Assembly: GCA_007120575.1 (NCBI GenBank)
Contig: SKNJ01000039.1
Location: 1-14,647, forward strand
Reading direction: 5' to 3'
Length of the DNA stretch: 14,647 nt
Source of the DNA: Thioalkalivibrio sp.
Lineage (GTDB): Bacteria; Pseudomonadota; Gammaproteobacteria; Ectothiorhodospirales; Ectothiorhodospiraceae
Part shown: in pieces, positions 322 to 14,521 of the stretch
Numbering within the stretch: the stretch's first letter is position 1
Layout of the letters: each line of letters starts with the position of its first letter
Position numbers and translations under genes: made by a program
The notes under the pieces: model-generated
Told to the model about the DNA's origin: nothing
The model's input: the letters and a program-made list of their open reading frames with translations, nothing else
Databases searched by the model: none

Positions 322-1275
322 ATGCAGGTCGCCGTCACCGGCGCCGCCGGCCGCCTGGGACAGGTCCTGCTGCCAGCCCTGGCCCGCGATCCCGCCATCA
401 CCCGGGTCCTCGCGCTGGACCGCCGGCCGATCGTCCCGCCTTCCGCGGCCGCGTCCGTCGACGCCCGCGAACTGGCGCTCGAAGACCTGCGACCCGCAAC
501 CCTCGCCGGGACCGGCACCCTGGTCCATCTCGCCTTTCAGCTGATGGGCGGGCACGGCGGCCCCCGGCGCCACGACCGCGACTGGGTCCGGGAACAGAAC
601 GTATCCCTGGCCCGGCAAGTGTTCGAAAACGCACGCGCGGCTGGCGTCCGGCACCTGGTGTTTCTCTCCAGCGCCGCGGTCTACGGGCCGTGGCCGGACT
701 CGCCGCGCCCCCTGCGCGAGGACCACCCACCCCGCCCGCGCTTTCCCTATGCCCACGACAAGGTGGCAGTGGAGGAGGCCCTGCATGCACTCGGCACGCG
801 CCACCCCGATCTGCGGGTCACCATCCTGCGCCCGCCGGCGATCGTCGGACCGCATGCCCACCCGCTGCTGCAGCGTATCGCGCGCGGGCGCCTGTACCCG
901 ACCGGCCCCGGTCACCCGGTACAGATCCTGTGGGAGGACGACGCCGCGGACGCGATCGTGCGCGCGGTGACCGGCGTCGTTCCCGGGGTCTTCAACCTGG
1001 CCACCGCACCGGCCTGGTCGCTGCGCGCGATGGCACGCCATCGGCGCCGCTGGGCCCTGCCGGTCCCCCTGCCCCTGATCCGCGCCCTGCACCCGCTGGC
1101 CTGGCGCCTGAGCGCCGCCGCCGGAGACCCCGGCTGGGTACAGGGCCTGGACGGCCCACTGGAACTGGATTGCAGCCGTGCCCATACCCAACTCGGCTGG
1201 ACGCCGCGGGTCTCCACCCCCGAATGTCTGGAAAGACTTCGATCCACCCGCACACCCACAACCCCCGCCCCGTAG
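322..1275 (+). CDS. NAD(P)-dependent epimerase/dehydratase family protein (extended SDR)
   Basis: A 317-residue protein starting at ATG 322, seven bases after the preceding stop. The N-terminus MQVAVTGAAGRLGQ carries the Rossmann TGxxGxxG nucleotide-binding motif. FLSSAAVYG is the usual strand with the catalytic Ser/Thr region, and YAHDK is the YxxxK catalytic pair of short-chain dehydrogenases. ILRPPAIVGP is the usual substrate-side strand after it. The size fits extended SDRs that act on nucleotide sugars or related NAD-bound substrates. The substrate is not identifiable. The TAG stop at 1273-1275 lies inside the GTAG head of a REP-like repeat, so the last residues (proline- and threonine-rich) may reflect insertion of the repeat into the 3' end. 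Family confidence is high; specific role unknown. Confidence 0.85.
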   Translation: MQVAVTGAAGRLGQVLLPALARDPAITRVLALDRRPIVPPSAAASVDARELALEDLRPATLAGTGTLVHLAFQLMGGHGGPRRHDRDWVREQNVSLARQVFENARAAGVRHLVFLSSAAVYGPWPDSPRPLREDHPPRPRFPYAHDKVAVEEALHALGTRHPDLRVTILRPPAIVGPHAHPLLQRIARGRLYPTGPGHPVQILWEDDAADAIVRAVTGVVPGVFNLATAPAWSLRAMARHRRRWALPVPLPLIRALHPLAWRLSAAAGDPGWVQGLDGPLELDCSRAHTQLGWTPRVSTPECLERLRSTRTPTTPAP

Positions 1276-1339
1276 GCGGCGAACCCCTCGCCGATCCGGC
1301 CTGGCCAGCGCCCCATCGCCCAGAGGGCTGGGCTCCTGC
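1272..1339. repeat. REP-like inverted pair (copy A)
   Basis: Two palindromic elements face each other. The forward one (1272-1300) starts GTAGGCGGCGAACCCCTCGC. Its stem CGGCGA/TCGCCG closes on an ACCCC loop. The reverse one (1308-1339) read on the minus strand starts GCAGGAGCCCAGCCCTCTGG, with stem GCCCAG/CTGGGC around CCCT. Related pairs lie at 11006-11174, 13405-13474 and 14452-14521. The head-stem-tail form resembles bacterial REP/BIME elements. Confidence 0.85.
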
Positions 1340-1361
1340 GCGATCGAGGCCCTGGAACCCT

Positions 1362-1387
1362 GCAGGAACCGGCCCCGCCGGCGAACC
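1362..1387 (+). repeat. Divergent single REP-like element
   Basis: GCAGGAACCGGCCCCGCCGG followed by CGAACC has the same design as the neighbouring repeats: a GCAGGA head, a 5-bp stem CCGGC/GCCGG around a CCC loop, then a CGA tail. It has no clear reverse partner. It looks like a diverged or different-family member; lower certainty than the paired copies. Confidence 0.5.
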
Positions 1388-1450
1388 AGCGCCAGGTCTA
1401 CCCCGACCGCAGGCAGGCGCTTCGGGCACAGGGCACCCCCGGGGATCGGG

Positions 1451-1456
1451 TACAAT
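1451..1456 (+). promoter_or_regulatory. Possible -10 element upstream of the antiporter-kdsD-lpt operon
   Basis: TACAAT lies 42 nt before the antiporter ATG and is an AT-rich spot in very GC-rich surroundings. No good -35 hexamer sits 16-18 nt upstream. The rest of the 1276-1498 gap holds the REP-like repeats described separately and nothing coding that I can support. Confidence 0.35.
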
Positions 1457-1498
1457 GCACCCCCCGCACACCCCTGTCTCCAGTTTCGCGAGCTGCGC

Positions 1499-2482
1499 AT
1501 GTCCCTGGCATTGCCCCTGCTGGCCGTGATCGGCGGCCTGATCGTCCTGGTCTGGAGCGCCGACCGCTTCGTGTTCGGCGCCTCGGCCCTGGCCCGCAAC
1601 CTCGGGGTCACCCCGCTGCTGATCGGGCTGACCGTAGTCGCGTTCGGGACCTCGGCCCCGGAAGTCCTGGTCTCGATCCTCGCCAGTGTGCAGGGCAATC
1701 CGGGCCTGGCGGTCGGCAATGCGCTCGGCTCCAACATCGCCAACATCGCCCTGGTCCTGGGGGCCACCGCCCTGATCCTGCCACTGACCATCAGTCACGG
1801 CCTGGTCTGGCGCGAACTGCCGATCCTGCTCGGTGCCAGCGTGGTGGTGCTATTGCTGCTGCTCGACGGGGTTCTCGGCCGGATCGAGGGGATCTTCCTG
1901 CTGGCCGGGCTGGCCGCATTCACCACCTGGGTGATCCTCGCCGGCCGGCGCGCCCAGCAGACCGCCGGCGGGACACCCCCGGAGTTTGCGCAGGCGCAGG
2001 CTGCCGCCGTCCCGGAGGCAACCCCGATACGTCCCGCGCTGGCCTGGCTGGGAGCCGGCCTGCTGCTGCTCCTGGGCAGCAGTCAGGCGCTGGTTTGGGG
2101 GGCAGTAGAGATCGCCGAGGCACTGGGCGTCAGCGACCTGGTGATCGGCCTTAGCATTGTCGCCATCGGCACCAGCCTGCCGGAGCTCGCAACCTCGGTC
2201 GCCGCCGCGCTGCGCCGCGAGGCGGGACTGGCGATCGGCAACGTAATCGGTTCCAATCTGTTCAACCTGCTGGCAGTCCTCGCGATCCCCGGCCTGCTGG
2301 CCCCGCTGACGGTGGAACCGGCGGTGCTGACCCGCGACTACCCGATGATGCTGGGGCTCACCGCGCTGCTGTTCCTGCTCGCGCTGAGTAGCGGACGACG
2401 GATCCGGCGCTGGCATGGTGCCCTTCTCCTGGCGCTGTTCGCGGGCTACCTTGTATATCTGGCATTCACGGCGACCCCATGA
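1499..2482 (+). CDS. yrbG: Calcium/sodium antiporter, CaCA family (YrbG type)
   Basis: A 327-residue inner-membrane protein made almost entirely of hydrophobic segments. It shows the two inverted alpha repeats of the Ca2+:cation antiporter family. Repeat 1 has GTSAPE at residues 50-55 and GNALGSNIAN at about 73-82. Repeat 2 has GTSLPE at 224-229 followed by GNVIGSNLFN. The conserved glutamates and asparagines line the ion site in this family. A hydrophilic loop at about 155-180 joins the two halves. Family members exchange Na+ for Ca2+; the physiological cargo here is inferred. The ATG at 1499 is used because the protein begins directly with the first membrane segment. Its TGA overlaps the kdsD ATG (ATGA), as expected for a yrbG-kdsD operon. 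Confidence 0.92.
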   Translation: MSLALPLLAVIGGLIVLVWSADRFVFGASALARNLGVTPLLIGLTVVAFGTSAPEVLVSILASVQGNPGLAVGNALGSNIANIALVLGATALILPLTISHGLVWRELPILLGASVVVLLLLLDGVLGRIEGIFLLAGLAAFTTWVILAGRRAQQTAGGTPPEFAQAQAAAVPEATPIRPALAWLGAGLLLLLGSSQALVWGAVEIAEALGVSDLVIGLSIVAIGTSLPELATSVAAALRREAGLAIGNVIGSNLFNLLAVLAIPGLLAPLTVEPAVLTRDYPMMLGLTALLFLLALSSGRRIRRWHGALLLALFAGYLVYLAFTATP

Positions 2483-3456
2483 CCTTCAACCCCGACACCA
2501 CCCGCGCACTGGCCCTCGCCGTACTGCAGAACGAGGCGGAGGCCGTGCGTCAGCTTCAGGAGCGCATCGACGACGCGTTCCTGCGCGCCTGCCAGTTCAT
2601 CCTCGGCTGTCGCGGTCGGGTCGTGGTCACCGGCATGGGGAAGTCCGGGCATATCGGCAACAAGCTGGCCGCGACCCTGGCCTCCACCGGGACCCCGGCG
2701 TTCTTCGTCCACCCGGGCGAGGCCAGCCACGGTGACCTTGGCATGATCACCCGCGACGACGTGGTGATCGCGCTGTCCAACTCCGGCGAGACCGACGAGA
2801 TCCTCACCATCCTGCCGCTGATCCGGCGCCTCGACGTGCCGCTGATCGCGATGACCGGCAACCCCGGCTCGCGCCTCGGCCGCGACGCCAGCGTGCACCT
2901 GGATGTGAGCGTGGAGCGCGAGGCCTGCCCGCTGGGGCTGGCTCCAACCTCCAGCACCACCGCCGCGCTGGCGATGGGCGATGCGCTGGCAATCGCGGTG
3001 CTGGATGCACGGGGCTTCACCGCCAACGACTTTGCCCGCTCCCACCCCGGCGGGCGGCTGGGTCGGCGACTGCTGATCCACGTCGCGGACATCATGCACA
3101 CCGGTGACGCGATCCCGCGCGTGACGCCCGACACCGGACTGAAGGACGCCCTGTTCGAGATCACCCGCAAGGGTCTGGGCCTGGTCATCATCTGCGACGG
3201 CGAGGCGCGCATCCTGGGCGTGTTCACCGATGGCGATCTGCGCCGCACCCTGGATCGCGGCCACAGCCTGGACACCCTGACCATCGGCGAGGCGATGACC
3301 CCCGGCGGCCATACCGCGCGTCCGGAATGGCTCGCGGTCGAGGCCCTGGAGATGATGGAGAGCCGGCGTATCAGTGCCCTGCCGGTCGCCGACGACCAGC
3401 AGCGCCTGCTGGGCGTCATCAACATGCACGACCTGCTGCGCGCGGGGGTGGCCTGA
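2479..3456 (+). CDS. kdsD: Arabinose 5-phosphate isomerase KdsD
   Basis: A 325-residue enzyme that converts ribulose 5-phosphate to arabinose 5-phosphate, the first step of KDO synthesis for lipopolysaccharide. An N-terminal SIS sugar-isomerase domain (about residues 40-180) carries GMGKSGHIGNK at 52-62 and SNSGETDE. It is followed by two CBS domains (about 206-325). Aligning to the catalytic residues reported for E. coli KdsD (Lys59, Glu111, Glu152, His193), the counterparts Lys55, Glu107, Glu148 and His189 are all present. The start ATG overlaps the antiporter stop by 4 nt, and the stop overlaps the kdsC ATG by one base (TGATG). Both point to translational coupling. The length matches the family. 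Confidence 0.97.
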   Translation: MTFNPDTTRALALAVLQNEAEAVRQLQERIDDAFLRACQFILGCRGRVVVTGMGKSGHIGNKLAATLASTGTPAFFVHPGEASHGDLGMITRDDVVIALSNSGETDEILTILPLIRRLDVPLIAMTGNPGSRLGRDASVHLDVSVEREACPLGLAPTSSTTAALAMGDALAIAVLDARGFTANDFARSHPGGRLGRRLLIHVADIMHTGDAIPRVTPDTGLKDALFEITRKGLGLVIICDGEARILGVFTDGDLRRTLDRGHSLDTLTIGEAMTPGGHTARPEWLAVEALEMMESRRISALPVADDQQRLLGVINMHDLLRAGVA

Positions 3457-3992
3457 TGCCGCTCGACCCCGAGGCCCTGCATGCGGCGCAGCAGGCGGTC
3501 CGCCTGCTGATCCTGGACGTGGACGGCGTACTGACCGACGGCAGCCTGTTCCTCGGCGACGCCGGCGAGCAGTACAAGGCGTTCCACAGCCGCGACGGCC
3601 ATGGCATCCGCCTGGCGCTGGACGGCGGCCTGGAAGTGGCCGTGCTGACCGGACGCACCTCCGCGGTGGTCGAACACCGCATGCGCGACCTCGGCGTCGC
3701 GCACCTGATCCAGGGGCGCCGCGACAAGGGCGCGGCCCTGCACGAGCTGCTGGCCACCACCGGGCACGCGCCCGCCGAGGCCGCGTTCGTCGGCGACGAC
3801 ATCGTCGACCTCCCGGCGATGCGCCGGGTCGGCCTGGGTATCGCGGTCGGCGATGCACACCCGCTGACGCGCGAACACGCCCACTGGGTCACCCGCGCAC
3901 ACGGCGGCCACGGCGCGGTGCGCGAAATCTGCGAAGAACTGCTGGAAGCGCAGGGCCGGTTACAGGCCCTGCTGGCAGCGTACCTCGCGTGA
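3456..3992 (+). CDS. kdsC: 3-deoxy-D-manno-octulosonate 8-phosphate phosphatase KdsC
   Basis: A 178-residue HAD-superfamily phosphatase that removes phosphate from KDO 8-phosphate to give KDO. HAD motif I is DVDGVLTDG with the nucleophile Asp21 and the acid/base Asp23. Motif II is the Thr of VLTGRTS. The motif III lysine is in RRDKG. Motif IV is GDDIVD, which binds Mg2+. The protein lacks a cap domain, as is usual for the tetrameric KdsC group. It overlaps kdsD by one base, and its TGA overlaps the GTG start of lptC (GTGA). All motifs are intact, so it should be active. Confidence 0.96.
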   Translation: MPLDPEALHAAQQAVRLLILDVDGVLTDGSLFLGDAGEQYKAFHSRDGHGIRLALDGGLEVAVLTGRTSAVVEHRMRDLGVAHLIQGRRDKGAALHELLATTGHAPAEAAFVGDDIVDLPAMRRVGLGIAVGDAHPLTREHAHWVTRAHGGHGAVREICEELLEAQGRLQALLAAYLA

Positions 3993-4585
3993 GCGGCACC
4001 CTGCACCCCATTTACGGGCTCGCGATCGCAGCCATCGCGGCCGGGCTGTTTCCGCCGGCCGCCACAGCGCAGTCCGCCCCCGTGCCCGAGGGCGACCCGA
4101 CCCTGGAAATCACGCAATTCGCCCTGCACGTCACCGACGCGACCGGTCGGCCCAGCTACCAGCTGGAGGGCACCCGCCTGCGCGAGTTCGGACGCAACGG
4201 CCCGCAGTACATCGACGACCCGCGCCTGGACCTGCTGGATGCCCGCGGCCTGGAATGGCGCTGGACCGCGCCCGAGGCGCTGTACCGGCGCGATCGCGCC
4301 CGCCTGGAACTGTTCGGACCCACCCTCGGGCTGCAACCGGCGCGCGACGACCGGGTCCGAACCGAGATCGACAGCCGCGACGTGCAGGTAGACACCGAGA
4401 CCCTGATCGCCACCAGCGAGCAGCGCGCCACGTTGCGCCAGCCCGGGCTGCTGCATTCCGGGGTGGGCCTGCGTCTGGACTCTCGGGCGGATACCATGGT
4501 CCTGTTCAGCGATGTCTATACCCGCTACAGCCAATCGTCCGAGGAGGACGCAGCCAATGCACCCGCGACACCCTTGGCCGAATGA
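3989..4585 (+). CDS. lptC: LPS export periplasmic membrane-anchored protein LptC
   Basis: A 198-residue protein starting at GTG 3989, which overlaps the kdsC stop. The N-terminus has a single hydrophobic segment (about residues 6-28) that would anchor it in the inner membrane. The rest is a periplasmic beta-rich domain with the LptC-family pattern, including YQLEGTRLREFG and ending in a DTMVLFSDVYTRY-like strand. In the Lpt machine, LptC receives LPS from LptBFG and hands it to LptA. The length is close to the roughly 190 residues of E. coli LptC. Sequence identity in this family is low, so the call rests on the pattern plus its place between kdsC and lptA. Its 3' end overlaps lptA by 29 nt. 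Confidence 0.9.
   Translation: MSGTLHPIYGLAIAAIAAGLFPPAATAQSAPVPEGDPTLEITQFALHVTDATGRPSYQLEGTRLREFGRNGPQYIDDPRLDLLDARGLEWRWTAPEALYRRDRARLELFGPTLGLQPARDDRVRTEIDSRDVQVDTETLIATSEQRATLRQPGLLHSGVGLRLDSRADTMVLFSDVYTRYSQSSEEDAANAPATPLAE
4542..4548 (+). promoter_or_regulatory. Shine-Dalgarno site of lptA
   Basis: AGGAGGA sits 8 nt before ATG 4557 and lies inside the end of lptC. It decides the lptA start in favour of 4557 over an in-frame ATG at 4512. Confidence 0.8.
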
Positions 4586-5117
4586 CCCGCGCAGGGCACC
4601 GGGCAGGTGGCTCGGCGCGGCACGCGTCGCACGCCGGCTCCTGCTCCCGGTCTGCCTGCTGCTGCCACTGGCGGCGCTCGCGCAGCCGCCCGACGGCGAC
4701 GCACTCCCGGTGGAGATCGCCGCGGACCGCGCCGAGGTCGACGAGCGCCAGGGCATCAGCACCTACCATGGCGACGTAGTGCTCACCCATGGCGAGATGA
4801 CCCTGGAAGCGGACACCCTTACCATCCACACCCGCGAGCGCCGTCCACACACCCTGGAGGCGCACGGCGCACCCGCGCGCCTGGAAGCCCCGGATCCGGA
4901 GACCGGGGCAATGCGCATCGCCACCGCCGCGCGCATCGACTACCTGCTCGACGAGGAACGCGTGATCCTGGTCGGCGCGGCCCGCGTGCAGACCCCCACC
5001 GAGGACGCGCGCGCCGAGCGCATCACCTACGATCTGCGCAGCGACAGCATCCAGGCCGAACGCGGCGAGGGCGAAGACCAGCGCGTGCGCATCACCATCC
5101 AGCCGGGCGAGGAATGA
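4557..5117 (+). CDS. lptA: LPS transport periplasmic bridge protein LptA
   Basis: A 186-residue precursor. Residues 1 to about 42 form a signal peptide with a long arginine-rich start, a leucine-rich core and a likely cleavage after AALA. The mature part begins the OstA/LptA beta-jellyroll: PVEIAADRAEVDERQG, then GISTYHGDVVLTHGEMTLEAD, which is the classic LptA motif for a transported LPS groove. LptA forms the periplasmic bridge from LptC to LptD. The start was chosen by the strong ribosome-binding site at 4542-4548. The gene overlaps lptC by 29 nt and its stop overlaps the lptB ATG (ATGA). The acidic tail ending in PGEE is lineage-specific detail. Confidence 0.94.
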   Translation: MHPRHPWPNDPRRAPGRWLGAARVARRLLLPVCLLLPLAALAQPPDGDALPVEIAADRAEVDERQGISTYHGDVVLTHGEMTLEADTLTIHTRERRPHTLEAHGAPARLEAPDPETGAMRIATAARIDYLLDEERVILVGAARVQTPTEDARAERITYDLRSDSIQAERGEGEDQRVRITIQPGEE

Positions 5118-5875
5118 ACCCGACCACCGCCCAGCCCGCGAGCGATTCCGGCCAGCACCTGATCGGCCGCGAACTGACCAAGCGCTACGGCCAGCGCACG
5201 GTGCTCGACCGGGTCAACGTGGACCTCGCCCCGGGCGAGGTCGTCGGCCTGCTGGGCCCCAATGGCGCCGGCAAGACGACCTGCTTCTACGGGCTGGTCG
5301 GGCTGATCCGCCCGGATGCCGGGCATATCAGTCTGGCCGGTCAGGACATCACCCAGGCCCCGATCCACGAGCGTGCCCGGGCGGGCCTGGGCTACCTGCC
5401 GCAGGAGGCATCGATCTTCCGCCGCCTGAGCGTATGGAACAACATCCAGGCGGTACTCGAACTGCGCCCGGAGCTGGACCGCCACGAACGGCGCCGGATC
5501 GGAGACGAGCTGATCGAGGAGTTCCAGCTCGAAACCGTCCGCCACAGTCCGGGAATCGCCCTGTCCGGCGGCGAGCGGCGGCGCGCCGAGATCGCCCGGG
5601 CGCTGGCCGGAGACCCCCGCTTCATCTGCCTGGACGAGCCATTTGCCGGAGTCGACCCGATCTCGGTGGGCGACATTCAGGCCGTCATCACCCACCTGGC
5701 CACGCGCGGGATCGGGGTGCTGATCTCCGATCACAACGTCCGCGAGACCCTGCGCATCTGCAGTCGCGCCTATATTCTCAGCGAGGGGAAACTTCTCAGT
5801 GCCGGCACGCCGCAGGCCCTGCTGGACGACCCCCAGGTACGCCGGGTGTATCTCGGCGAGCACTTCGAGCTGTGA
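5114..5875 (+). CDS. lptB: LPS export ABC transporter ATPase LptB
   Basis: A 253-residue cytoplasmic ATPase that powers LPS extraction with LptF and LptG (not in this window). The Walker A motif GPNGAGKTT is at residues 48-56, the signature LSGGE at 150-154, Walker B FICLDEPFAGVDP with catalytic Glu175, and the switch His207 in SDHNVRET. The sequences YLPQEASIFRRLSVWNN and DEPFAGVDPISV are characteristic of LptB rather than other ABC ATPases. There is a roughly 15-residue extension before the ABC core (MNPTTAQPASDSGQ). The ATG overlaps the lptA stop, so it is translated with the operon. It is the last gene before a 127-nt gap. Confidence 0.97.
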   Translation: MNPTTAQPASDSGQHLIGRELTKRYGQRTVLDRVNVDLAPGEVVGLLGPNGAGKTTCFYGLVGLIRPDAGHISLAGQDITQAPIHERARAGLGYLPQEASIFRRLSVWNNIQAVLELRPELDRHERRRIGDELIEEFQLETVRHSPGIALSGGERRRAEIARALAGDPRFICLDEPFAGVDPISVGDIQAVITHLATRGIGVLISDHNVRETLRICSRAYILSEGKLLSAGTPQALLDDPQVRRVYLGEHFEL

Positions 5876-5960
5876 GCGTGCGCGGCGGGCCCTTCCCGGG
5901 ATACGTCCGGTCCGCCTTCCCGCGGCGCGCCCGGCACGCGAATTCATGCTCCATTCGGGG

Positions 5961-5966
5961 TAAGAT
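5961..5966 (+). promoter_or_regulatory. Possible -10 element upstream of rpoN
   Basis: TAAGAT is the only AT-rich hexamer in the 127-nt gap between lptB and rpoN. No fitting -35 is visible. If used, transcription would begin near 5973, about 30 nt before the rpoN start. Confidence 0.3.
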
Positions 5967-5973
5967 TTTCGGT

Positions 5974-6002
5974 ATGGCTACCACCCGTCGGACCCGCCCG
6001 CG

Positions 6003-6009
<7 letters not shown>
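5974..6009 (+). other. Short upstream ORF overlapping the rpoN start
   Basis: ATG 5974 opens an 11-codon frame (MATTRRTRPRC) ending in TGA at 6007-6009. The rpoN ATG at 6003 lies inside its last codons. No good ribosome-binding site precedes rpoN itself, so reinitiation after this mini-ORF is conceivable. This could equally be chance. Confidence 0.25.
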
Positions 6010-7502
<1,493 letters not shown>

Positions 7503-7504
7503 CC

Positions 7505-7843
7505 ATGCAAATCAACCTGACCGGCCACCATGTCGATATTACCGACGCCCTGCGCGACTACGTCAACGAGAAGTTCGCGAAGCTGGAGCGGCATTTCGAC
7601 AAGGTGATCGACGTGCATGTGGTGCTGACCCACGAAAAGACCCAGAACCTGCACAACAAGGCCGAAGCCAACCTCCAGGTCAGCGGCAATCACATCCACG
7701 CCGAAGCCAGTCACGACGACATGTACGCCGCGATCGACGGCCTGATCGACAAGGTCGACCGCCAGCTGATCAAGCACAAGGAGAAGGTCAAGGATCACCA
7801 CCGTGCCGAGGGCGCCCAGCGCAACCGCGAGCCGACCGAATAA
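7505..7843 (+). CDS. hpf: Ribosome hibernation promoting factor, short form
   Basis: A 112-residue protein of the HPF/YfiA family. It starts MQINLTGHHVDITDALRDYV and contains the basic helix FAKLERHFDKVIDVHVVL and the HDDMYAAIDGLIDKVDRQL segment typical of the family. It binds the 30S decoding centre and helps form inactive ribosome dimers in stationary phase. There is no long C-terminal dimerisation domain, so it is the short type, as in E. coli. A ribosome-binding site AGGAG (7493-7497) is 7 nt before the ATG, and only 2 nt separate it from the rpoN stop. The hpf gene follows rpoN in many proteobacteria. Confidence 0.96.
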   Translation: MQINLTGHHVDITDALRDYVNEKFAKLERHFDKVIDVHVVLTHEKTQNLHNKAEANLQVSGNHIHAEASHDDMYAAIDGLIDKVDRQLIKHKEKVKDHHRAEGAQRNREPTE

Positions 7844-7847
7844 AACC

Positions 7848-8309
7848 ATGTCCATTGCCGAGCTGTTCACCCCCGAGCGAATCCTGCTGGAGCCCGAATG
7901 CTCCAGCAAGAAACGGGCACTCGAGACCCTGGCGGAACTGCTCGCCAGCGGGGACGACGGGCCGGGCACCGGCGCCACGTTCGAGGCGCTGTCGGCGCGC
8001 GAGAAACTCGGCTCCACCGGGCTGGGCCATGGGATCGCCATCCCGCATGGGCGGCTGGGCGAGCTGAACGATCCGCGGGTCGCGGTCCTGCGCCTGGACC
8101 GCGGGGTCGATTTCGACGCCATGGACCACGAGCCGGTCGATATCCTGATCGGCCTGCTGGTCCCCGAAGCCGCCACCAGCGAGCACCTGGACCTGCTGGC
8201 CCAGCTTGCGCGCGGGATCTCGCAGCCGGACACCATCGCATCCCTGCGCCGCGCCGCGGACACCAGGGGGCTGGAGGGAGCGCTGCGGGCGGCGTTCGCC
8301 TCCGGCTAA
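7848..8309 (+). CDS. ptsN: PTS IIA-like nitrogen-regulatory protein PtsN (EIIA-Ntr)
   Basis: A 153-residue EIIA-Ntr protein of the nitrogen PTS. The phospho-acceptor is His67 in the motif GHGIAIPHGR, matching E. coli His73. The preceding REKLGSTGLG segment is the family signature. In other bacteria PtsN does not carry sugar; its phosphorylation state controls potassium uptake and sensor kinases. It lies 4 nt after hpf. The start was chosen by the family N-terminus (MSIAELFTPERI). There is no strong Shine-Dalgarno, so coupling to hpf is likely. Confidence 0.96.
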   Translation: MSIAELFTPERILLEPECSSKKRALETLAELLASGDDGPGTGATFEALSAREKLGSTGLGHGIAIPHGRLGELNDPRVAVLRLDRGVDFDAMDHEPVDILIGLLVPEAATSEHLDLLAQLARGISQPDTIASLRRAADTRGLEGALRAAFASG

Positions 8310-8361
8310 TGTCCACGATGCCCCCGCATCACGCCACCAGCCAGCCCCCCGGGATCCGGGC

Positions 8362-9393
8362 ATGAACGAGGCCCTGGGTGAAGGCGGGATTGCCCGCGAC
8401 ATCCGGCTGGACGACCTGATCCAGGCGCTTGGCAGCCGCCTTGACCTGCACTACGTGCATGGCGAACAGGACGCTTCCGACCGCTTGCTGATCGGGGGCG
8501 ATGGCGACGACCTCCCGCTCGCCGGCCACCTGAATCTGATCCGACCCAACCGCATCCAGGTCATCGGCGATTTCGAGTCGCGCTATATCGCCGGCCTGAC
8601 CGAAGACCAGCGCGATCAGCTGACCCTCGAAATGACCCGTGCCGGCACCACGGCGGTGATCTTCGCCGAGGACACCCAGCCATTCGCGCGCATGCCGGAC
8701 GCCCCGCCCGGCGCGCTCCCGGTCATCCTCGGTTCCGGCAGCGGCAGCCACGAGGTCATCGCGCTGCTGCGCTACTTCCTGCAGCAGCGACTGGCACATT
8801 TCGAAGTTCGCCACGGGGTGTTCATGGAGATCCTCGGGATCGGCGTGCTGATCAGCGGCGCCTCCAGTGTCGGCAAGAGCGAGGTCGCTCTGGAACTGAT
8901 CTCGCGCGGCCACCGGCTGATCGCGGACGACGCCCCCGAATTCGCGCGCATCGCCCCGGACATCGTGCGCGGCCACTGCCCGCCGCTGCTGCAGGACCTG
9001 CTGGAGGTGCGCGGGCTCGGCGTCCTGAACATCCGCGCCATGTACGGCGACTCGGCGATCAAGGGCGGCAAATACCTGCGCCTGATCATCGATCTGCGCG
9101 ATCATACCGAGCCCTCGCCGGTCCCCGACGACCGTCTCAACGGCCGGCGTGGCGAGATCGACATCCTCGGCCTGCGCATCCCACTGATCAGCCTGCCAGT
9201 CGCCCCTGGACGCAACATCGCGGTGATGATCGAGGCCGCGGTCCGCAACCACATGCTGCACATGCAGGGCTACGTCGCCGGCGACGACCTGCGCGCGCGC
9301 CAGCGCCGCCAGATGACTGGCAAACCCGACGAGCCGCCCTACCATCGGGCGATGCCCGCGACCACCGTCCCCAACCCCGACCCGGAGGGCTGA
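8362..9393 (+). CDS. hprK: HPr kinase/phosphorylase HprK
   Basis: A 343-residue bifunctional enzyme that phosphorylates and dephosphorylates Ser46 of HPr. It has the N-terminal HprK domain (about residues 1-140), then HGVFMEILGIGVLISGASSV leading into the P-loop. The P-loop GASSVGKS is at residues 166-173, and Asp189-Asp190 lie in IADDAPEF. The HprK signature EVRGLGVLNIRAMYG is present. The usual family P-loop is GxSGxGKS, so Ser169 replaces a glycine. There is a C-terminal tail of about 30 residues rich in Arg, Pro and Asp. It is found in Gram-positives and in several proteobacterial PTS-Ntr clusters. The substrate HPr with Ser46 is encoded three genes on. Confidence 0.93.
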   Translation: MNEALGEGGIARDIRLDDLIQALGSRLDLHYVHGEQDASDRLLIGGDGDDLPLAGHLNLIRPNRIQVIGDFESRYIAGLTEDQRDQLTLEMTRAGTTAVIFAEDTQPFARMPDAPPGALPVILGSGSGSHEVIALLRYFLQQRLAHFEVRHGVFMEILGIGVLISGASSVGKSEVALELISRGHRLIADDAPEFARIAPDIVRGHCPPLLQDLLEVRGLGVLNIRAMYGDSAIKGGKYLRLIIDLRDHTEPSPVPDDRLNGRRGEIDILGLRIPLISLPVAPGRNIAVMIEAAVRNHMLHMQGYVAGDDLRARQRRQMTGKPDEPPYHRAMPATTVPNPDPEG

Positions 9394-9401
9394 ACCCCCG
9401 C

Positions 9402-10274
9402 ATGCGCCTGTTGATCGTCAGCGGACTCTCCGGATCCGGCAAGACCGTCGCCCTGCACACCCTCGAAGACGCCGGCTACTTCTGTGTCGACAATCTGCCC
9501 CTGCCCCTGCTGCCCGAACTGATCGCGCAGGTCCGGCAGGGCCCGTACGACCCGGACCAGGACCGGCACCTGGCGGTGGGCGTGGACGTGCGCAGCGGCC
9601 TCCAAGCCCTGCAGGGCTTCGGCCGGCTGCTGCGCGAGCTGCGCGGCGACGGCCTCCAGGTCGAGGTGCTGTTCCTGCACTCGTCCAGCGATGTCCTGCT
9701 GCGGCGCTATCACCTGACCCGCCGACGCCACCCGCTGGCACGCGACGGCCTCCCGCTGATGGAGGCGATCGAGAGGGAACGCGAATGGCTGGGGCACGTC
9801 GCCGGCGAAGCCGACCTGACCGTGGACACCAGCCGCCTGTCGATGCACGAACTCGCGCGCACCCTGCGTGAACGCATCGGTGGCCCGGGCGGCGATGAAC
9901 TATCCGTACTGTTCCAGTCGTTCGGCTTCAAGCACGGCGCGCCGATGGATTCCGACTTCGTGTTCGACGTGCGCTGCCTGCCCAACCCCTACTACGAGCC
10001 CGAGCTTGCGCCGCTCACCGGACGCGACCCGGAGGTGATCGGCTACCTTGAAGGACACACGGAGGTCGGGACCATGTTCGACAGCATCCATGGGCTGCTG
10101 ACACAGTGGGTCCCGCGCTTCCACGACGGCCACCGCAGCTACCTGACCGTGTCCGTCGGCTGCACCGGCGGGCGCCACCGTTCGGTGTACCTGGTCGAAC
10201 GCCTTGCGGGGGCGTGGAATGGCCGCGAACATGTTACTGTTAGCACCCGTCACCGGGAGCTGGGGAAGTCGTAG
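9402..10274 (+). CDS. rapZ: RNase adapter protein RapZ
   Basis: A 290-residue P-loop protein. The P-loop GLSGSGKT is at residues 8-15, with FCVDNLPLPLL as the following family motif. The C-terminal motif GCTGGRHRSVYLVERLA, which in E. coli RapZ binds RNA and glucosamine 6-phosphate, is intact. In E. coli RapZ guides RNase E to the small RNA GlmZ and so controls GlmS; whether such an RNA exists here is not known. The length is close to E. coli (284 residues). It follows hprK after 8 nt. A GGAGG at 9384-9388 lies 13 nt before ATG 9402, a rather long spacing. Confidence 0.96.
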   Translation: MRLLIVSGLSGSGKTVALHTLEDAGYFCVDNLPLPLLPELIAQVRQGPYDPDQDRHLAVGVDVRSGLQALQGFGRLLRELRGDGLQVEVLFLHSSSDVLLRRYHLTRRRHPLARDGLPLMEAIEREREWLGHVAGEADLTVDTSRLSMHELARTLRERIGGPGGDELSVLFQSFGFKHGAPMDSDFVFDVRCLPNPYYEPELAPLTGRDPEVIGYLEGHTEVGTMFDSIHGLLTQWVPRFHDGHRSYLTVSVGCTGGRHRSVYLVERLAGAWNGREHVTVSTRHRELGKS

Positions 10275-10315
10275 GCCATGGACACGGTCGAAGCTCCCGC
10301 CCGGAACCCACAATC

Positions 10316-10319
10316 GGAG
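10316..10319 (+). promoter_or_regulatory. Ribosome-binding site of the EIIA-Man gene
   Basis: GGAG lies 7 nt before ATG 10327 and settles the start of the EIIA gene against longer in-frame options beginning at 10204. Confidence 0.6.
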
Positions 10320-10326
10320 TAGATCC

Positions 10327-10752
10327 ATGGGCGTCGGTCTCCTTCTGATCACGCATCAAAACCTCGGCGACACTCTGCTGCAGACCGCGCGCAGCATGCT
10401 CGGAGAGCTCCCCGAGGACTGCGAGTCCATGGCCATGTCCCAGAACGACGACCCCGACGAGGTGCTGGCGCGCGCCCGCGAGCGCCTGACCACGCTGGAC
10501 CATGGCGAGGGCGTACTGATCCTCACCGACATGTTCGGTTCCACCCCGTCAAATGTCGCCAGCCGGGTCGCGCGCGGCGCAAACGCGCGCGTGGTCGCCG
10601 GGGTCAACCTGCCGATGCTGGTCCGCGTGCTCAACTACCGCCACCTGCCCCTGAGCGAGCTGGTCAACAAGGCACTGTCCGGGGGGCACGATGGAATCCT
10701 ACTCTGCGACCAGGAATGCAGCGATGCCGCAGCGCGCAGTTCCCATCGTTAA
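10327..10752 (+). CDS. PTS mannose-type EIIA domain protein
   Basis: A 141-residue single-domain EIIA of the mannose family. His10 in GVGLLLITHQN is the phospho-acceptor, the same position as in E. coli ManX. TDMFGSTPSN and GVNLPML are family motifs around the active site. No IIB, IIC or IID sugar-transport parts are encoded nearby. A regulatory role within a proteobacterial PTS (often called PtsM or EIIA-Man) is therefore inferred rather than sugar uptake. The gene overlaps ptsH by 29 nt, suggesting coupled translation. The acidic linker QNDDPDEV is unremarkable for the group. Confidence 0.9.
   Translation: MGVGLLLITHQNLGDTLLQTARSMLGELPEDCESMAMSQNDDPDEVLARARERLTTLDHGEGVLILTDMFGSTPSNVASRVARGANARVVAGVNLPMLVRVLNYRHLPLSELVNKALSGGHDGILLCDQECSDAAARSSHR
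10712..10715 (+). promoter_or_regulatory. Ribosome-binding site deciding the ptsH start
   Basis: AGGA sits 8 nt before ATG 10724. It favours that start over the upstream in-frame ATG 10691, which would add 11 residues absent from HPr proteins. Confidence 0.6.
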
Positions 10753-10993
10753 TCGGCTGGGGATGCATGCGCGCGCGGCGGCCAAGTTTGTCAGCCTGGC
10801 CAGCCAGTACGTCGCCGACATCACCGTCGCCCGCAACCAGCAGGAAGTCAACGGAAAAAGCATCATGGGAGTCATGATGCTGGCCGCGGCCCAGGGCAGC
10901 GAAATCACCATCCAGGCCGAAGGCGAGGACGCCGACCAGGCACTGGACGCCCTGGCCGACCTGGTCGCCAACCGCTTCGGCGAAGAAGCCTGA
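10724..10993 (+). CDS. ptsH: Phosphocarrier protein HPr
   Basis: An 89-residue HPr, the usual length. His15 in NRLGMHARAAA is the phosphohistidine site. Position 18, usually proline, is alanine here. Ser46 in VNGKSIMG (residues 42-49) matches the HprK target site, so both regulatory sites are present. It would relay phosphate from an enzyme I to EIIA-Ntr and EIIA-Man. No enzyme I gene follows; the next 247 nt hold repeats, then a convergent gene. The start at 10724 is set by length and a ribosome-binding site. It overlaps the EIIA gene by 29 nt. Confidence 0.96.
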   Translation: MPQRAVPIVNRLGMHARAAAKFVSLASQYVADITVARNQQEVNGKSIMGVMMLAAAQGSEITIQAEGEDADQALDALADLVANRFGEEA

Positions 10994-11005
10994 CCCCGCT
11001 CGCCA

Positions 11006-11174
11006 ACGCCCCATCGCCCAGAGGGCTGGGCTCCTACGCGTCACGGGCCACCAAACCGTAGGAGGCGAGCCCCCCCGATCCGGCATCACCAGCGCCCCAT
11101 CGCCCAGAGGGCTGGGCTCCTACACGTCACGGGGCCACCAAACCGTAGGAGGCGAGCCCCCTCGCCGATCGGGC
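11006..11174. repeat. Tandem array of four REP-like elements (copy B)
   Basis: Order reverse-forward-reverse-forward. Reverse elements lie at 11006-11037 and 11092-11123, forward elements at 11058-11084 and 11145-11174. The reverse heads are exactly 86 nt apart and the forward heads 87 nt apart, with a shared spacer CGTCACGG(G)GCCACCAAACC. The array is thus one unit duplicated in tandem. The first forward element lost three bases of its stem (TCG missing). It starts 12 nt after the ptsH stop, between convergent ptsH and speD. The rest of 10994-11240 holds only a short hairpin. Confidence 0.88.
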
Positions 11175-11213
11175 CTCGCCCACGACCACCCCCAACGCGG
11201 CCAAACGCTTCGC

Positions 11214-11233
11214 CCGCCGAGCACACCCGGCGG
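11214..11233 (-). terminator. Possible terminator hairpin after speD
   Basis: Read on the minus strand, CCGCCG and CGGCGG pair over an 8-nt loop, starting 8 nt after the speD stop. There is no T-run, so intrinsic termination would be weak at best. It is a candidate only. Confidence 0.25.
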
Positions 11234-11240
11234 CACCGAG

Positions 11241-12050
11241 TCAGCCAGGACTGCTCATGTTCTTCCCGTAGAAGATTTCCATCATCTCGTGCTTGAGCAG
11301 CTTGGCGATGCGCTTGGCCTCTTTCGCCGAGTAGTCGTCCTTGCCCAGCCCGAACAGGTAACTGTCCAGGTCGAAGTCCTTCAGCACCATCTTGGTGTGG
11401 AACAGGTACTCCTGGTACACGTTCACATCCACCATCTGGTACTTCTCCTGGGTGTCGCGCGACAGGAAGTCCTGGATGGAATTGATCTTGTGATCGATAA
11501 AGTGCTTCTTGCCGCGCACATCACGGGTAAAACCGCGCACCCGGTAGTCCATGATCACGATGTCGGACTCGAAGCTGTGGATCAGGTAGTTCAGGGCCCG
11601 CAGCGGCGAGATGCGCCCGCAGGTGGACACATCGATATCGGCACGGAAGGTCGCGATGCCGCCCTCCGGATGCGCCTCCGGATAGGTGTGCACGGTGATG
11701 TGACTCTTGTCCAGGTGCCCGACCACGGTCTCCGGCAGCGGGCCGGGCCCCTCGGTATAGCCGATCTTCTCGGTGGCCACCGGCTCCTCCGAGATCAGCA
11801 TGGTCACCGAGGCCCCCTGCGGGTCGTAGTCCTGGCGCGAGATATCCAGGATATTCGCCCCGATCAGGTGCGCGACATCGGTCAGGATCTGGGTGAGGCG
11901 CTGCGCGTTGTAGGCCTCATCGATATAGGCAATGTACTCGTCGCGATGCCGCTCGCCCGAGGCATAGCAGATGTCGTAAATATTGAAGCTCAGGCTCTTG
12001 GTCAGGTTGTTGAACCCGTGGAGCTTGATCTGCTTCTTGTGACGGGGCAT
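11241..12050 (-). CDS. speD: S-adenosylmethionine decarboxylase proenzyme SpeD
   Basis: A 269-residue protein of the E. coli type. It self-cleaves to form a pyruvoyl cofactor and decarboxylates S-adenosylmethionine, giving the propylamine donor for spermidine. The cleavage site is [13 protein letters not shown], with the pyruvoyl-forming Ser116 matching E. coli Ser112. Cys144 in [20 protein letters not shown] corresponds to E. coli Cys140, a catalytic residue. The length (269 versus 264) fits. It has a Shine-Dalgarno AGGA 6 nt before its ATG and a recognisable sigma-70 promoter. It is convergent with ptsH, across the repeat array. No spermidine synthase (speE) is seen in the window. Confidence 0.97.
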
Positions 12051-12086
12051 GGCGTATCCTCTTGCCCGGGCCGCGGGGAGCGCCGA

Positions 12087-12114
12087 ATTGTAGACGTCCG
12101 CGGCACCGATTCAA
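12087..12114 (-). promoter_or_regulatory. Sigma-70 promoter of speD
   Basis: On the minus strand TTGAAT (12109-12114) and TACAAT (12087-12092) are spaced by 16 nt. This is the best promoter match in the window. Transcription would start near 12080, about 30 nt before the speD ATG. It sits in the gap after the yhfA stop, so speD can be expressed independently of yhfA. Confidence 0.7.
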
Positions 12115-12127
12115 AGCCGCACCGGCA

Positions 12128-12559
12128 TCAGGCGCGCGGCGCGGGACCCTCGATGATCTCGAAATCGTGGGTCACGTTGGCCGAGGCCCCCAGCATCAGC
12201 GACGCCGAGCAGTACTTCTCGGCCGACAGGTGCACCACCCGGCGCACGTGCTTTTCGGACAGCTCGCGCCCGTACACCCTGAAGTGCACGTGAATGTCGG
12301 TAAACACCTTGGGCACACTCTCCGCGCGCGTACCGTCCACAGTCACGTGGCAGTCCAGCACGTCCTGACGCGCCTTCTTCAGCATCGCGATCACGTCAAA
12401 ACTGGTACAGCCCCCGAGCCCCAGCAGCAGCATCTCCATCGGCCGCGCCCCCAGATTGCGCCCGCCGGCGTCCGGGGCCCCGTCCATCACCACGGCATGA
12501 CCGCTGTCGGTCTCGCCCACAAAAGCCACCTGGTCCAGCCACTTCACTTGAACCTGCAT
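12128..12559 (-). CDS. yhfA: OsmC family protein, YhfA type
   Basis: A 143-residue OsmC/Ohr-fold protein. The N-terminus MQVQVKWLDQVAFVGE and RPMEMLLLGLGGCTSFDVI match the YhfA subgroup rather than OsmC or Ohr. The two family cysteines are Cys51 in GGCTSFD and Cys117 in SAEKYCSA, the pair that reduces organic peroxides in active members. The start at 12559 is preferred to an ATG at 12577 because family members begin MQ and an AGGGA sits about 8 nt before it. In E. coli yhfA is also divergent from crp, so this placement is conserved. The actual substrate of YhfA is not settled. Confidence 0.9.
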   Translation of the reverse strand: MQVQVKWLDQVAFVGETDSGHAVVMDGAPDAGGRNLGARPMEMLLLGLGGCTSFDVIAMLKKARQDVLDCHVTVDGTRAESVPKVFTDIHVHFRVYGRELSEKHVRRVVHLSAEKYCSASLMLGASANVTHDFEIIEGPAPRA

Positions 12560-12618
12560 GTGCGTATTCCCTGTCATTGCCTATACTGAGAGGGACTCTA
12601 ATCAGCGCGGACCCAATG

Positions 12619-12650
12619 CACAAAATCGCGGCCCGATCCGCTGTTTTGTG
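12619..12650. promoter_or_regulatory. Inverted repeat between yhfA and crp
   Basis: CACAAAA (12619-12625) and TTTTGTG (12644-12650) form a perfect 7-bp inverted repeat separated by 18 nt. It lies in the divergent gap 12560-12733 between yhfA and crp. The arms contain TTTTGTG, resembling a Crp half-site (TGTGA), but the spacing is too wide for one standard Crp dimer site. It may be an operator for both genes. Confidence 0.4.
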
Positions 12651-12694
12651 AACCCGTCCAGCATGCCCGGCGCAACGGGGGCGAAGCACTGGAT

Positions 12695-12700
12695 TACACT
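12695..12700 (+). promoter_or_regulatory. Possible -10 element for crp
   Basis: TACACT in ATTACACT stands 33 nt before the crp ATG at 12734. No clear -35 is present, as is common for activator-dependent promoters. It is a candidate only. Confidence 0.3.
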
Positions 12701-12733
12701 GGCGGTCGATTTCGCGAACCACCCCGGGACGCC

Positions 12734-13384
12734 ATGATGGAAGCCATGAAAAACCCGCTCGCCTACAAGCCGGCCCAGCCGTCACCCGCCCTGGAACGCT
12801 TTCTCGGACACTGCCATCGTCGGCACTACCGCAAGCGCACCACCATCATCCATTCCGGCAGCGTGCCCGACACGCTCTACTACATCGTGAGTGGCTCGGT
12901 GTCCGTGCTGGGCGAGAACAATGGCCACGAACTGGTCCTGGCCTACCTCAATCCCGGCGAATTCTTCGGCGAACTCGGCATGTTCGAGGATGACCCGCGC
13001 AGCGCGACCGTCACCACCCGCGAGGACACCGAGACCGCGGAGATCCCCTACACCCAGTTCCGCGAACTGGTCCAGCACGACTCCGAAATCCTGATGCTGC
13101 TGACCAGCCAGATCGCCACGCGCCTGCGCCAGACCTCGCGCAAGGTCATGGACCTCGCGTTCGTCGACGTCACCGGCCGCATCGCCCACACCCTGCTCGA
13201 TCTGGCCCGCCAGCCCGACGCCATGACCCACCCCGACGGCATGCAACTGCGCATCACCCGCCAGGAGATCGCGCGCATCGTCGGCTGCTCGCGCGAAATG
13301 GCCGGACGCGTCCTCAAGGATCTCGAAGAACGCGGCCTGATCACCGCCCGCGGCAAGACCATCGTCGTCTTCGGCACCCGCTGA
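12734..13384 (+). CDS. crp: cAMP receptor protein / Vfr-type transcription regulator
   Basis: A 216-residue Crp-family regulator very similar to E. coli Crp. The cAMP pocket [19 protein letters not shown] carries the Gly-Glu and Arg-Ser that bind cAMP in Crp, and the Thr-Ser pair in RQTSRKV is present. [20 protein letters not shown] follows. The helix-turn-helix [20 protein letters not shown] has the Arg, Glu and Arg that contact TGTGA sites in E. coli Crp. The recognised DNA motif is therefore likely the same. Candidate starts are 12734, 12737 and 12746; 12746 would give 212 residues, closest to E. coli (210) and Vfr. It is divergent from yhfA, the conserved arrangement. Confidence 0.95.
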
Positions 13385-13404
13385 CCCACCGACGCCACGC
13401 CCCC

Positions 13405-13474
13405 GCAGGAGGCCAGCCCCCTGGCCGATCGGGCACATCCAGCGCCCCAATCGCCGAGAGGGCTCGGCTCCTGC
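13405..13474. repeat. REP-like inverted pair (copy C)
   Basis: The forward element (13405-13434) is GCAGGAGGCCAGCCCCCTGG, then CCGATCGGGC, with stem GGCCAG/CTGGCC around CCCC. The reverse element (13442-13474), read on the minus strand, starts GCAGGAGCCGAGCCCTCTCG, with stem GCCGAG/CTCGGC around CCCT. It begins 20 nt after the crp stop. Confidence 0.87.
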
Positions 13475-13517
13475 GTGGGCGGGGAGGCACCGCCAGACGG
13501 TGGAACCCGTATGGCTC

Positions 13518-13526
13518 TGGTACGCT
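13518..13526 (+). promoter_or_regulatory. Possible extended -10 promoter of mntA-hepT
   Basis: TGGTACGCT fits an extended -10 (TGN followed by TACGCT). It precedes ATG 13566 by 39 nt. No -35 match is needed for extended -10 promoters and none is seen. If real, translation cannot start at the upstream GTG 13500. Confidence 0.35.
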
Positions 13527-13565
13527 GTTACCGACAATGGGCACACAGACCTACTGGCAAACGGG

Positions 13566-13952
13566 ATGTTGCAACCAGATCAGACCAGGCGTATCGCCGA
13601 ACTTGCCCGGACCCATGGGTGGCAACTGGTCATCCTGTTCGGATCGGTGGCGCGACAAGGCGAGGGACGCGATATCGACCTGGCGATTCAGCCAGCGGCG
13701 GTGCCGGACCTCATGACCCAGGGGCGCTGGCAGAGGGAACTCGAAGACGTGCTCCAGCCCAAGCCAGTCGATCTGCTGGTGCTCACTGACGGGACGTCCC
13801 CGCTCCTGCGCTTCCAGGTCTTCCGCGACGGCGCCTGCCTGTACGAGGCCCGGCCCGGGCGTTTCCACGCAGAGCAGGACCGGGCATTTTTCCTGCATGC
13901 CGATGCGGTCCTCTTCCAGCGGCACCGGGAGGAGGATCCGGATGCCGCCTGA
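13566..13952 (+). CDS. mntA: MNT-domain nucleotidyltransferase antitoxin (MntA-like)
   Basis: A 128-residue minimal nucleotidyltransferase. The nucleotide-binding motif is FGSVARQGEGRDIDLAI: Gly26, Ser27, then Asp36-x-Asp38, with a probable third metal-binding Asp69 in PVDLLVL. In characterised MntA antitoxins, this domain transfers AMP to a tyrosine of the HEPN toxin and inactivates it. The motif there is GS-X10-DXD, whereas here only eight residues separate GS from DXD. The start at 13566 gives a typical MNT N-terminus; an upstream GTG at 13500 would add 22 residues that look like non-coding sequence. Its stop overlaps hepT by 11 nt. The two genes form a type VII toxin-antitoxin style pair. 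Confidence 0.82.
   Translation: MLQPDQTRRIAELARTHGWQLVILFGSVARQGEGRDIDLAIQPAAVPDLMTQGRWQRELEDVLQPKPVDLLVLTDGTSPLLRFQVFRDGACLYEARPGRFHAEQDRAFFLHADAVLFQRHREEDPDAA
13927..13936 (+). promoter_or_regulatory. Shine-Dalgarno site of hepT
   Basis: GGGAGGAGGA lies 5 nt before ATG 13942 and inside mntA. It decides the toxin start and would give strong translation coupled to the antitoxin gene. Confidence 0.75.
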
Positions 13953-14352
13953 ATCATCGGAAATCATGCAGCGCAAGCTGGACATGCTCCGCCAGTTCCT
14001 GCTTGATCTGGAACAGTACGCTGCGCTGGAACCGCGCGAACAGCGGCGCGATCACTACGCGATCGAACGCCTGCTACAGCTGCTCTGCGAGTCATCCGCC
14101 GACATCGGCCTCCAACTGTTGCGGCGCAATGGACATAGGCTTGCCGCAAGCTACCGCGAGGTATTCCTGACGCTGCGCGAACGCCTGGACCTGGACGAGG
14201 ACCTGGCAAACCAGCTCATGGACGCCTGTGCCATGCGCAATGTGCTGACACACCTCTACGACACCATTGACCTGGACCGTGTCATCGCCGCCATCGTGCC
14301 GGCCATCCGCGTATACACTGACTTCGCCCGCTGGGCCGAACAACAGCAATAG
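13942..14352 (+). CDS. hepT: HEPN-domain ribonuclease toxin (HepT-like)
   Basis: A 136-residue all-helical HEPN protein. The RNase motif RNVLTHLY (RX4HXY) is intact, with Arg99, His104 and Tyr106. Tyr106 corresponds to the tyrosine that MntA modifies with AMP in the studied Shewanella pair. HEPN toxins of this group form dimers and cut RNA when unmodified. The length and the downstream helix (DLDRVIAAIVPAIRVYTDFA) fit the HepT-like/DUF86 family. The start at ATG 13942 is supported by a strong ribosome-binding site and overlaps the antitoxin by 11 nt. The pair is flanked by REP pairs. Toxicity is inferred, not shown. Confidence 0.85.
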   Translation: MPPESSEIMQRKLDMLRQFLLDLEQYAALEPREQRRDHYAIERLLQLLCESSADIGLQLLRRNGHRLAASYREVFLTLRERLDLDEDLANQLMDACAMRNVLTHLYDTIDLDRVIAAIVPAIRVYTDFARWAEQQQ

Positions 14353-14451
14353 CCTGGCTTGCCGGCAAACCCCTCATCCACGCCCGCACCCACGCGCAAA
14401 GCGCCCTGTCGTGCGTCGCCACCGATGGCGCGCTGACGAGGCCACCAAACC

Positions 14452-14521
14452 GCAGGAGGCCAGCCCTCTGGCCGATGGGGCGCTGGCGACGCCGCAATCG
14501 CCGAGAGGGCTCGGCTCCTAC
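14452..14521. repeat. REP-like inverted pair (copy D)
   Basis: The forward element (14452-14483) starts GCAGGAGGCCAGCCCTCTGG, with stem GGCCAG/CTGGCC around CCCT. The reverse element (14491-14521), read on the minus strand, starts GTAGGAGCCGAGCCCTCTCG, with stem GCCGAG/CTCGGC. The spacer text CCACCAAACC just before it is the same as in the 11006-11174 array. The 100 nt before it (14353-14451) hold nothing else I can identify. Confidence 0.87.

Follow-up and report, generated by a model that had tools for sequence, protein, structure and literature searches.

GTAG-1-type REP elements of a Thioalkalivibrio contig, their spread through the genus and the RAYT genes of relatives that such elements flank

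What are the short hairpins that recur between the genes of a 14,647-nucleotide Thioalkalivibrio contig, and how did they come to be there? This stretch, called the window below, forms contig C28 of a draft assembly that totals 2.15 Mb in 344 contigs and is 66.6% complete. It was assigned to the genus through 11 named relatives, which share its gene order and have a RapZ identity of 76-82%. The original prediction was that the hairpins are repetitive extragenic palindromic (REP) elements mobilised by a REP-associated tyrosine transposase (RAYT), and our results support it. The elements are very probably REPs of the GTAG-1 type known from Pseudomonas and relatives, that is, non-autonomous mobile repeats moved by a RAYT and inherited mainly as head-out inverted doublets of ~70 bp (REPINs) and as alternating arrays. 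This is supported by their anatomy, copy number, genus-wide spread, pair conservation and doublet structure, by one orthologous gap without the element, and by their position around RAYT genes in relatives.

The window has ten elements in all, eight complete, with perfect 6-bp stems and zero pattern mismatches, and two degraded. The count first proposed, ten complete and one divergent, was thus too high, but the elements were real, and their coordinates, head, loop and tail were as described. A complete element consists of GYAGGA, a 6-bp stem, a CCCY loop, the complementary stem and a GAT tail. All four stem types originally listed (GGCGAG/CTCGCC, GGCCAG/CTGGCC, GCCCAG/CTGGGC and GCCGAG/CTCGGC) are present. 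As single-stranded DNA, the eight intact hairpins and the degraded copy at 1272 had folding energies of -6.8 to -7.3 kcal/mol, and between 0 and 10 per 200 shuffles folded equally well. These and all later energies are predictions for naked single strands, with DNA parameters.

GTAG-1 REPs have been reported from Pseudomonas, Xanthomonas, Thauera and Thioalkalivibrio sp. K90mix (Di Nocera et al. 2013, PMC3733652). In common with that description, the elements have a GTAG (or GYAG/GTRG) head, two unpaired extra bases (GA) before the stem, a short stem and loop, and a 3-bp tail. Doublets, arrays, a TAG that serves as stop codon and alternative complementary stems are likewise common to both. Many dispersed copies were found, with their intergenic position checked in the window, and they form sub-families with alternative complementary stem residues, one relative (G024, see below) being the exception. 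In the present elements, the loop reads CCCY and many heads are GCAG; the likeness to the published family is one of anatomy.

For counting, a search pattern was used in which head, inner stem, loop and tail were fixed and three stem pairs were free on both arms, with the reversed pattern as control. Up to two mismatches were tolerated in the own genome and up to one in the genus. The own genome gave 44 matches against none for the control, which excludes chance. One of them (C315) is stemless and looks like a chance match. The three free pairs were fully complementary in 39 of the 44 matches, while two use G-T and three are broken, including the chance-like one. Random re-pairing of the arms (10,000 trials) gave a mean of 10.5 fully paired matches and a maximum of 21. 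The two arms do change together, as proposed, but in few independent events. There are nine distinct arm pairs, five of them fully paired. Because the copies descend from few masters, independent compensations number only a handful, and copy counts inflate the evidence for pairing.

Stems were tabulated for the own genome and for five relatives (G001, G005, G006, G010 and G024), and other genomes were counted by pattern. Among zero-mismatch copies, all three free pairs were retained in 65/69 (G001), 38/39 (G005), 37/40 (G006) and 44/45 (G010), 184 of 193 when pooled. It had been stated beforehand that stem changes disrupting the pairs no less often than preserving them would refute the prediction. 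Such changes were found in one relative, G024; the own genome and the other four keep their pairs. Small-hairpin pairing is therefore kept in the own genome and four relatives, yet it is not indispensable everywhere.

The survey comprised 30 genomes of the genus, the own one included, and 47 of the order. Within the genus, 28 of the 30 genomes had the pattern, and copy numbers ranged from 0 to 233 over all 30; the control gave none. The exact pattern was found in 30 of the 47 genomes of the order, 28 of these within this genus. The two others were G040, from another genus, with 10 copies (9 with GCCGAG stems), and a further genome with 2. The elements are thus spread over genome and genus and are not confined to the window, the other outcome that had been considered adverse.

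On a map of 46 own elements, from which the C315 match was omitted, neighbours are regularly spaced. The distance is 41-44 bp for head-out neighbours (16 pairs) and 45-48 bp for tail-out ones (12 pairs, plus one at 131); a single pair is on the same strand and two elements are isolated. Such inverted doublets with fixed spacing, able to form one hairpin, are REPINs. They resemble the REPINs described for P. fluorescens SBW25 (Bertels and Rainey 2011, PMC3116915) in being extragenic inverted doublets, in their tandem arrays and clusters beside RAYT genes, and in having two alternative folds. They differ from these in that nearly all own doublets (13/14) are heterodimers. Stem partners were tested for 10 of the 14 own REPINs; the remaining four, a GGTCAG homodimer or doublets with a partner outside the four main stems, were dropped. 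Only GGCGAG+GCCCAG (3) and GGCCAG+GCCGAG (7) were seen (p=0.008). Two arrays account for six of these ten, which are not independent, so that this p value overstates the evidence. GGCCAG was also seen with three less common partners. Published work regards the doublet as the replicating unit (PMC3116915), and the pattern agrees with this.

Genes resembling Y1_Tnp were present in 26 of the 30 genomes of the genus. With the G013 protein as query, 46 matches were found in 22 genomes, and the flanks of 30 matches were scanned (reversed control: 1 match over all 30 loci). Seven RAYT genes, 66-100% identical, stood out (G001, G003 with an internal stop, G006, G008, G013, G014 and G028). All seven have GTAG-1 hairpins on both sides of the gene, 6-17 per locus. 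No GTAG-1 element with a perfect 6-bp stem was found, over flanks of up to 1.5 kb, at the 23 other tyrosine-transposase loci scanned, and a pattern re-scan of these gave a single 3-mismatch match (L167). Divergent RAYTs have different flanking stems: GGCCAG/GCGCAG in a group with 93-100% identity, GGCCGG/GGCCAG in G001, GGCCAG/GGCGAG in G003 and GCCCAG/GCCGAG in G006.

Three of the proteins matched the NCBIfam model REP_Tyr_transpos (NF047646 family; E 9e-43 to 1e-43), and the sole match among solved structures was 4er8, TnpArep. An HLH motif and a Tyr-Ile-x-x-Asn-Pro motif are invariant in the six intact members. We take the former to be the HUH motif and the Tyr of the latter to be the catalytic residue. 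By description, the system can be likened to the group 3 TnpAREP/REP pairs (PMC8266576), with their short REPs, generally perfect stems and HUH-motif RAYT. Copy numbers were compared over the 23 genomes with a completeness of 90% or more. Six of these have an intact RAYT of the flanked set and held 50-110 copies; the 17 without had 0-58, except for one with 233 (one-sided Mann-Whitney p=0.0012, uncorrected for descent). An intact RAYT as sole determinant of copy number was rejected, as G024 contradicts it.

In a tree of 19 proteins, from which L156 (internal stop) was excluded, as from the alignment, the 10 nearest unflanked relatives formed a supported clade (100/99) and five flanked RAYTs a group (82/95). 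The G006 RAYT branches outside this five-member group, with unsure placement. The 10 unflanked relatives were set aside as mobilisers because none is flanked by this element. Beside a RAYT of the unflanked clade (L161 in G016), two Pseudomonas-like GTGGGAGCGGGCCTTGCCCGCGAA hairpins form a doublet at positions 1363-1443, which may represent a second REP family in the genus. This pair is of the Pseudomonas-like GTGGGAGCGGGC type and lies on one side of the gene only. At L145 (G013, 2169-2800), a gene pair sits among the REPs adjoining the RAYT gene; by eye, it is presumably toxin-antitoxin-like. In G005 (C1:1652462-1657093; L131, L150), four Y1_Tnp-like genes stand in tandem with a period of ~1.4 kb, which is unusual by the standard of the single-copy RAYTs described elsewhere (PMC3116915).

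By analogy with published work on other RAYTs, from which cleavage, strand choice and movement are taken, a doublet exposed as single-stranded DNA would fold. Its GTAG head and short hairpin would together be recognised by a RAYT (NF047646 family, HUH tyrosine transposases), which would nick and re-insert the doublet between genes. Arrays would then grow through tandem duplication.

Several points weigh against this account. Movement was unobserved. The flanked RAYTs were grouped by identity after their flanks had been seen, and a single clade is unsupported, with G006 falling outside. The copy-number test ignores genome relatedness and scores the G003 gene, with its internal stop, as absent. 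Although G024 holds more copies than any other genome (233), the G013-protein search matched no RAYT of the REP-flanked set there, and a stem mismatch is present in most copies sampled. The flanked RAYT found in seven relatives also has no counterpart in the own genome: at 67% completeness, neither the G013 protein nor, at E<=0.1, the family model revealed a RAYT. The own genome holds only a 40-residue tyrosine-transposase fragment (C317), at a contig end and without REPs. It was rejected as the missing RAYT, since the RAYT model is unmatched in the genome and no REP adjoins it. In the own lineage, the RAYT has either been lost or lies in the third of the genome that the assembly lacks.

Within the window, the elements are grouped in four clusters. 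Three are head-out doublets 68-70 bp long, and the fourth is an array of four elements that repeats every 87 bp or so. All ten are intergenic, bar 4 bases of the first, while intergenic DNA makes up 9.8% of the window. The first doublet (68 bp) consists of a degraded element at 1272..1295 on the plus strand (head GTAGGC, 3-nt loop, 5/6 stem pairs) and a complete one at 1315..1339 on the minus strand (GCCCAG/CTGGGC). The TAG of the former terminates the epimerase reading frame (322-1275) as its stop codon, a role reported before for the GTAG head (PMC3733652). Between this gene and the following exchanger gene, the gap is 223 bp in the window, compared with 0-55 bp and no element in the 8 named relatives in which it was measurable. 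L035 was left out of this comparison, as no stop was found for its upstream gene. The pattern (up to 3 mismatches) was absent from the corresponding loci of all 11 named relatives. A loose hairpin scan of the same loci gave only hairpins that lack the common core and was discarded. Because ~150 bp of the window gap lie besides the doublet, the relatives do not present a clean empty site. Synteny with them extends to ptsH, as far as their loci reach.

The array begins with a complete element at 11013..11037 (minus strand, GCCCAG/CTGGGC), followed by a degraded one at 11058..11080 (plus strand), whose 3' stem arm is partly deleted and which has no stable fold, and by complete ones at 11099..11123 (minus strand, GCCCAG/CTGGGC) and 11145..11169 (plus strand, GGCGAG/CTCGCC). 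At this array, ptsH is joined to speD (10994-11240). There is a serious chance, short of even, that the array (11005-11169) and the ptsH-speD joint are an assembly artefact caused by repeats in a draft genome. For 23 relatives both genes were listed; in each, the two are on separate contigs or at a distance above 200 kb. ptsH was found in none of the 25 speD flanks of relatives (up to 1.5 kb). Other REP copies stand at contig ends (C89, C295, C20). However, both window halves have the same four nearest relatives, a result that was also obtained when a foreign origin of one half was considered. Moreover, coq7, a neighbour of speD in several relatives (by eye; Pfam for one), lies inside another contig of the own genome, without an adjoining speD and with no REP in its locus, so gene order there has changed in any case. 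In other relatives, G005 and G013 for example, speD has yet another neighbour.

In the relatives' loci, speD is followed by osmC in 25/25 and by crp in 17/25. Downstream of speD in G026 (L198), there are more GTAG-1-like hairpins with a different stem (GTAGGAGCGGCTTCCAGCCGCGAT), as well as one match to the pattern within 2 mismatches. In the window, a 70-bp REPIN lies just downstream of the crp-like gene, its left half at 13405..13429 (plus strand, GGCCAG/CTGGCC) and its right half at 13450..13474 (minus strand, GCCGAG/CTCGGC). A second 70-bp REPIN, downstream of a HepT-like gene, has the same stems in its left (14452..14476, plus strand) and right half (14497..14521, minus strand). These two similar REPINs (13405-14521, with the stretch between them) bracket a nucleotidyltransferase/HepT-like gene pair, which we assume to be of the MNT-HEPN type. 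It occupies the position after crp in which one relative has an indole-3-glycerol phosphate synthase gene (trpC) and most others, by eye, a similar sequence. Gene-order breakpoints were thus seen at two of the three REP neighbourhoods examined. Possible causes are REP-REP recombination, repeated insertion into permissive sites or, for the ptsH joint, misassembly.

A further question is which fold is kept. The selected structure might be one long hairpin formed by the whole doublet and not the small hairpin of each REP, which we consider rather unlikely for the elements at large. The long hairpin is the minimum-energy fold in 11 of the 14 own REPINs, and homodimers of the own genome and other relatives favour it by ~18-28 kcal/mol. 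But the 13 heterodimers interrupt it, and in 11 of these (by eye) both small hairpins are perfect. The median difference between the two folds is just 2.1 kcal/mol in the own genome, and the small-hairpin pairs are retained in the four relatives tabulated above.

G024, which has the highest copy number in the genus, also speaks for the long hairpin. A G·G at stem pair 2, near the stem base, was present in 25 of the 42 zero-mismatch copies listed (81 counted). It was also present in 54 of 69 elements (up to 3 mismatches) on 20 contig stretches of 224 kb, which were selected for holding listed copies; the reversed control gave 3 matches there. In most G024 doublets, the G·G is common to both partners, so the partners still match at this position. 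The fold with two small hairpins is weak in G024 (median -9.3 kcal/mol vs -17.1 in the own genome), while the minimum energy is strong (median -22.6 vs -20.0 kcal/mol), and the long hairpin was best in 18/18 sampled REPINs. The mismatch is therefore predicted to weaken each small hairpin but not the doublet-wide one.

The short REPs of group 3 are described as generally perfect palindromes (PMC8266576), whereas most sampled G024 copies have the same stem mismatch. For a Stenotrophomonas pair, the same source reports that cleavage was reduced or almost abolished by a mismatch close to mid-stem. Set against these descriptions, G024 is unusual. Near the stem base, where the G024 mismatch lies, some mutations are reported there to have improved cleavage. 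No report of such a variant was met in the literature searched, which is weak evidence of novelty. Tentatively, a normally perfect REP may have gained the pair-2 G·G in G024 and become the most numerous of the genus, its doublet shifting to one long hairpin, as if the transposase had changed the fold or the unpaired base that it reads; we would put this at well below an even chance.

It is quite improbable that the host retains the hairpins for a role in RNA at the 3' ends of genes, in termination or in protection of mRNA 3' ends, with mobility as their origin only. All four window clusters do lie within ~100 bp downstream of a gene, the array between two convergent genes and each of the others behind the epimerase gene, the crp-like gene or the HepT-like gene, and the stems are stable and rich in G+C. 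It is also on record that REPs occur downstream of genes and that many are plausibly transcribed (PMC3733652). Yet the GTAG head, the GAT tail and the doublet spacing are conserved outside the hairpin, and the orthologous epimerase gene end has no element in 8 relatives. Intrinsic terminators were rejected, as neither strand shows a T-run after the hairpins (sequence read by eye, with no terminator scan).

Mobile GTAG-1 REPs remain the best explanation of the window's hairpins. GTAG-1 in K90mix is already in print (PMC3733652), so the class was known before, and so was its presence in the genus. A REP with a GTAG head has also been described, with a RAYT listed, for another strain under this genus name, Thioalkalivibrio sp. 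HL-EbGR7 (Nunvar et al. 2010, PMC2817692). Its consensus is different (GTAGGTCGGCCTTCAGGCCGAC), and it corresponds to GTAG-5 in PMC3733652. For the field, such elements are ordinary. What is useful is the genus as a natural experiment, with 30 genomes that hold 0-233 copies, several RAYTs with flanking stem types of their own, and one genome that breaks the stem rule. This Thioalkalivibrio set permits asking which of two folds a RAYT reads.

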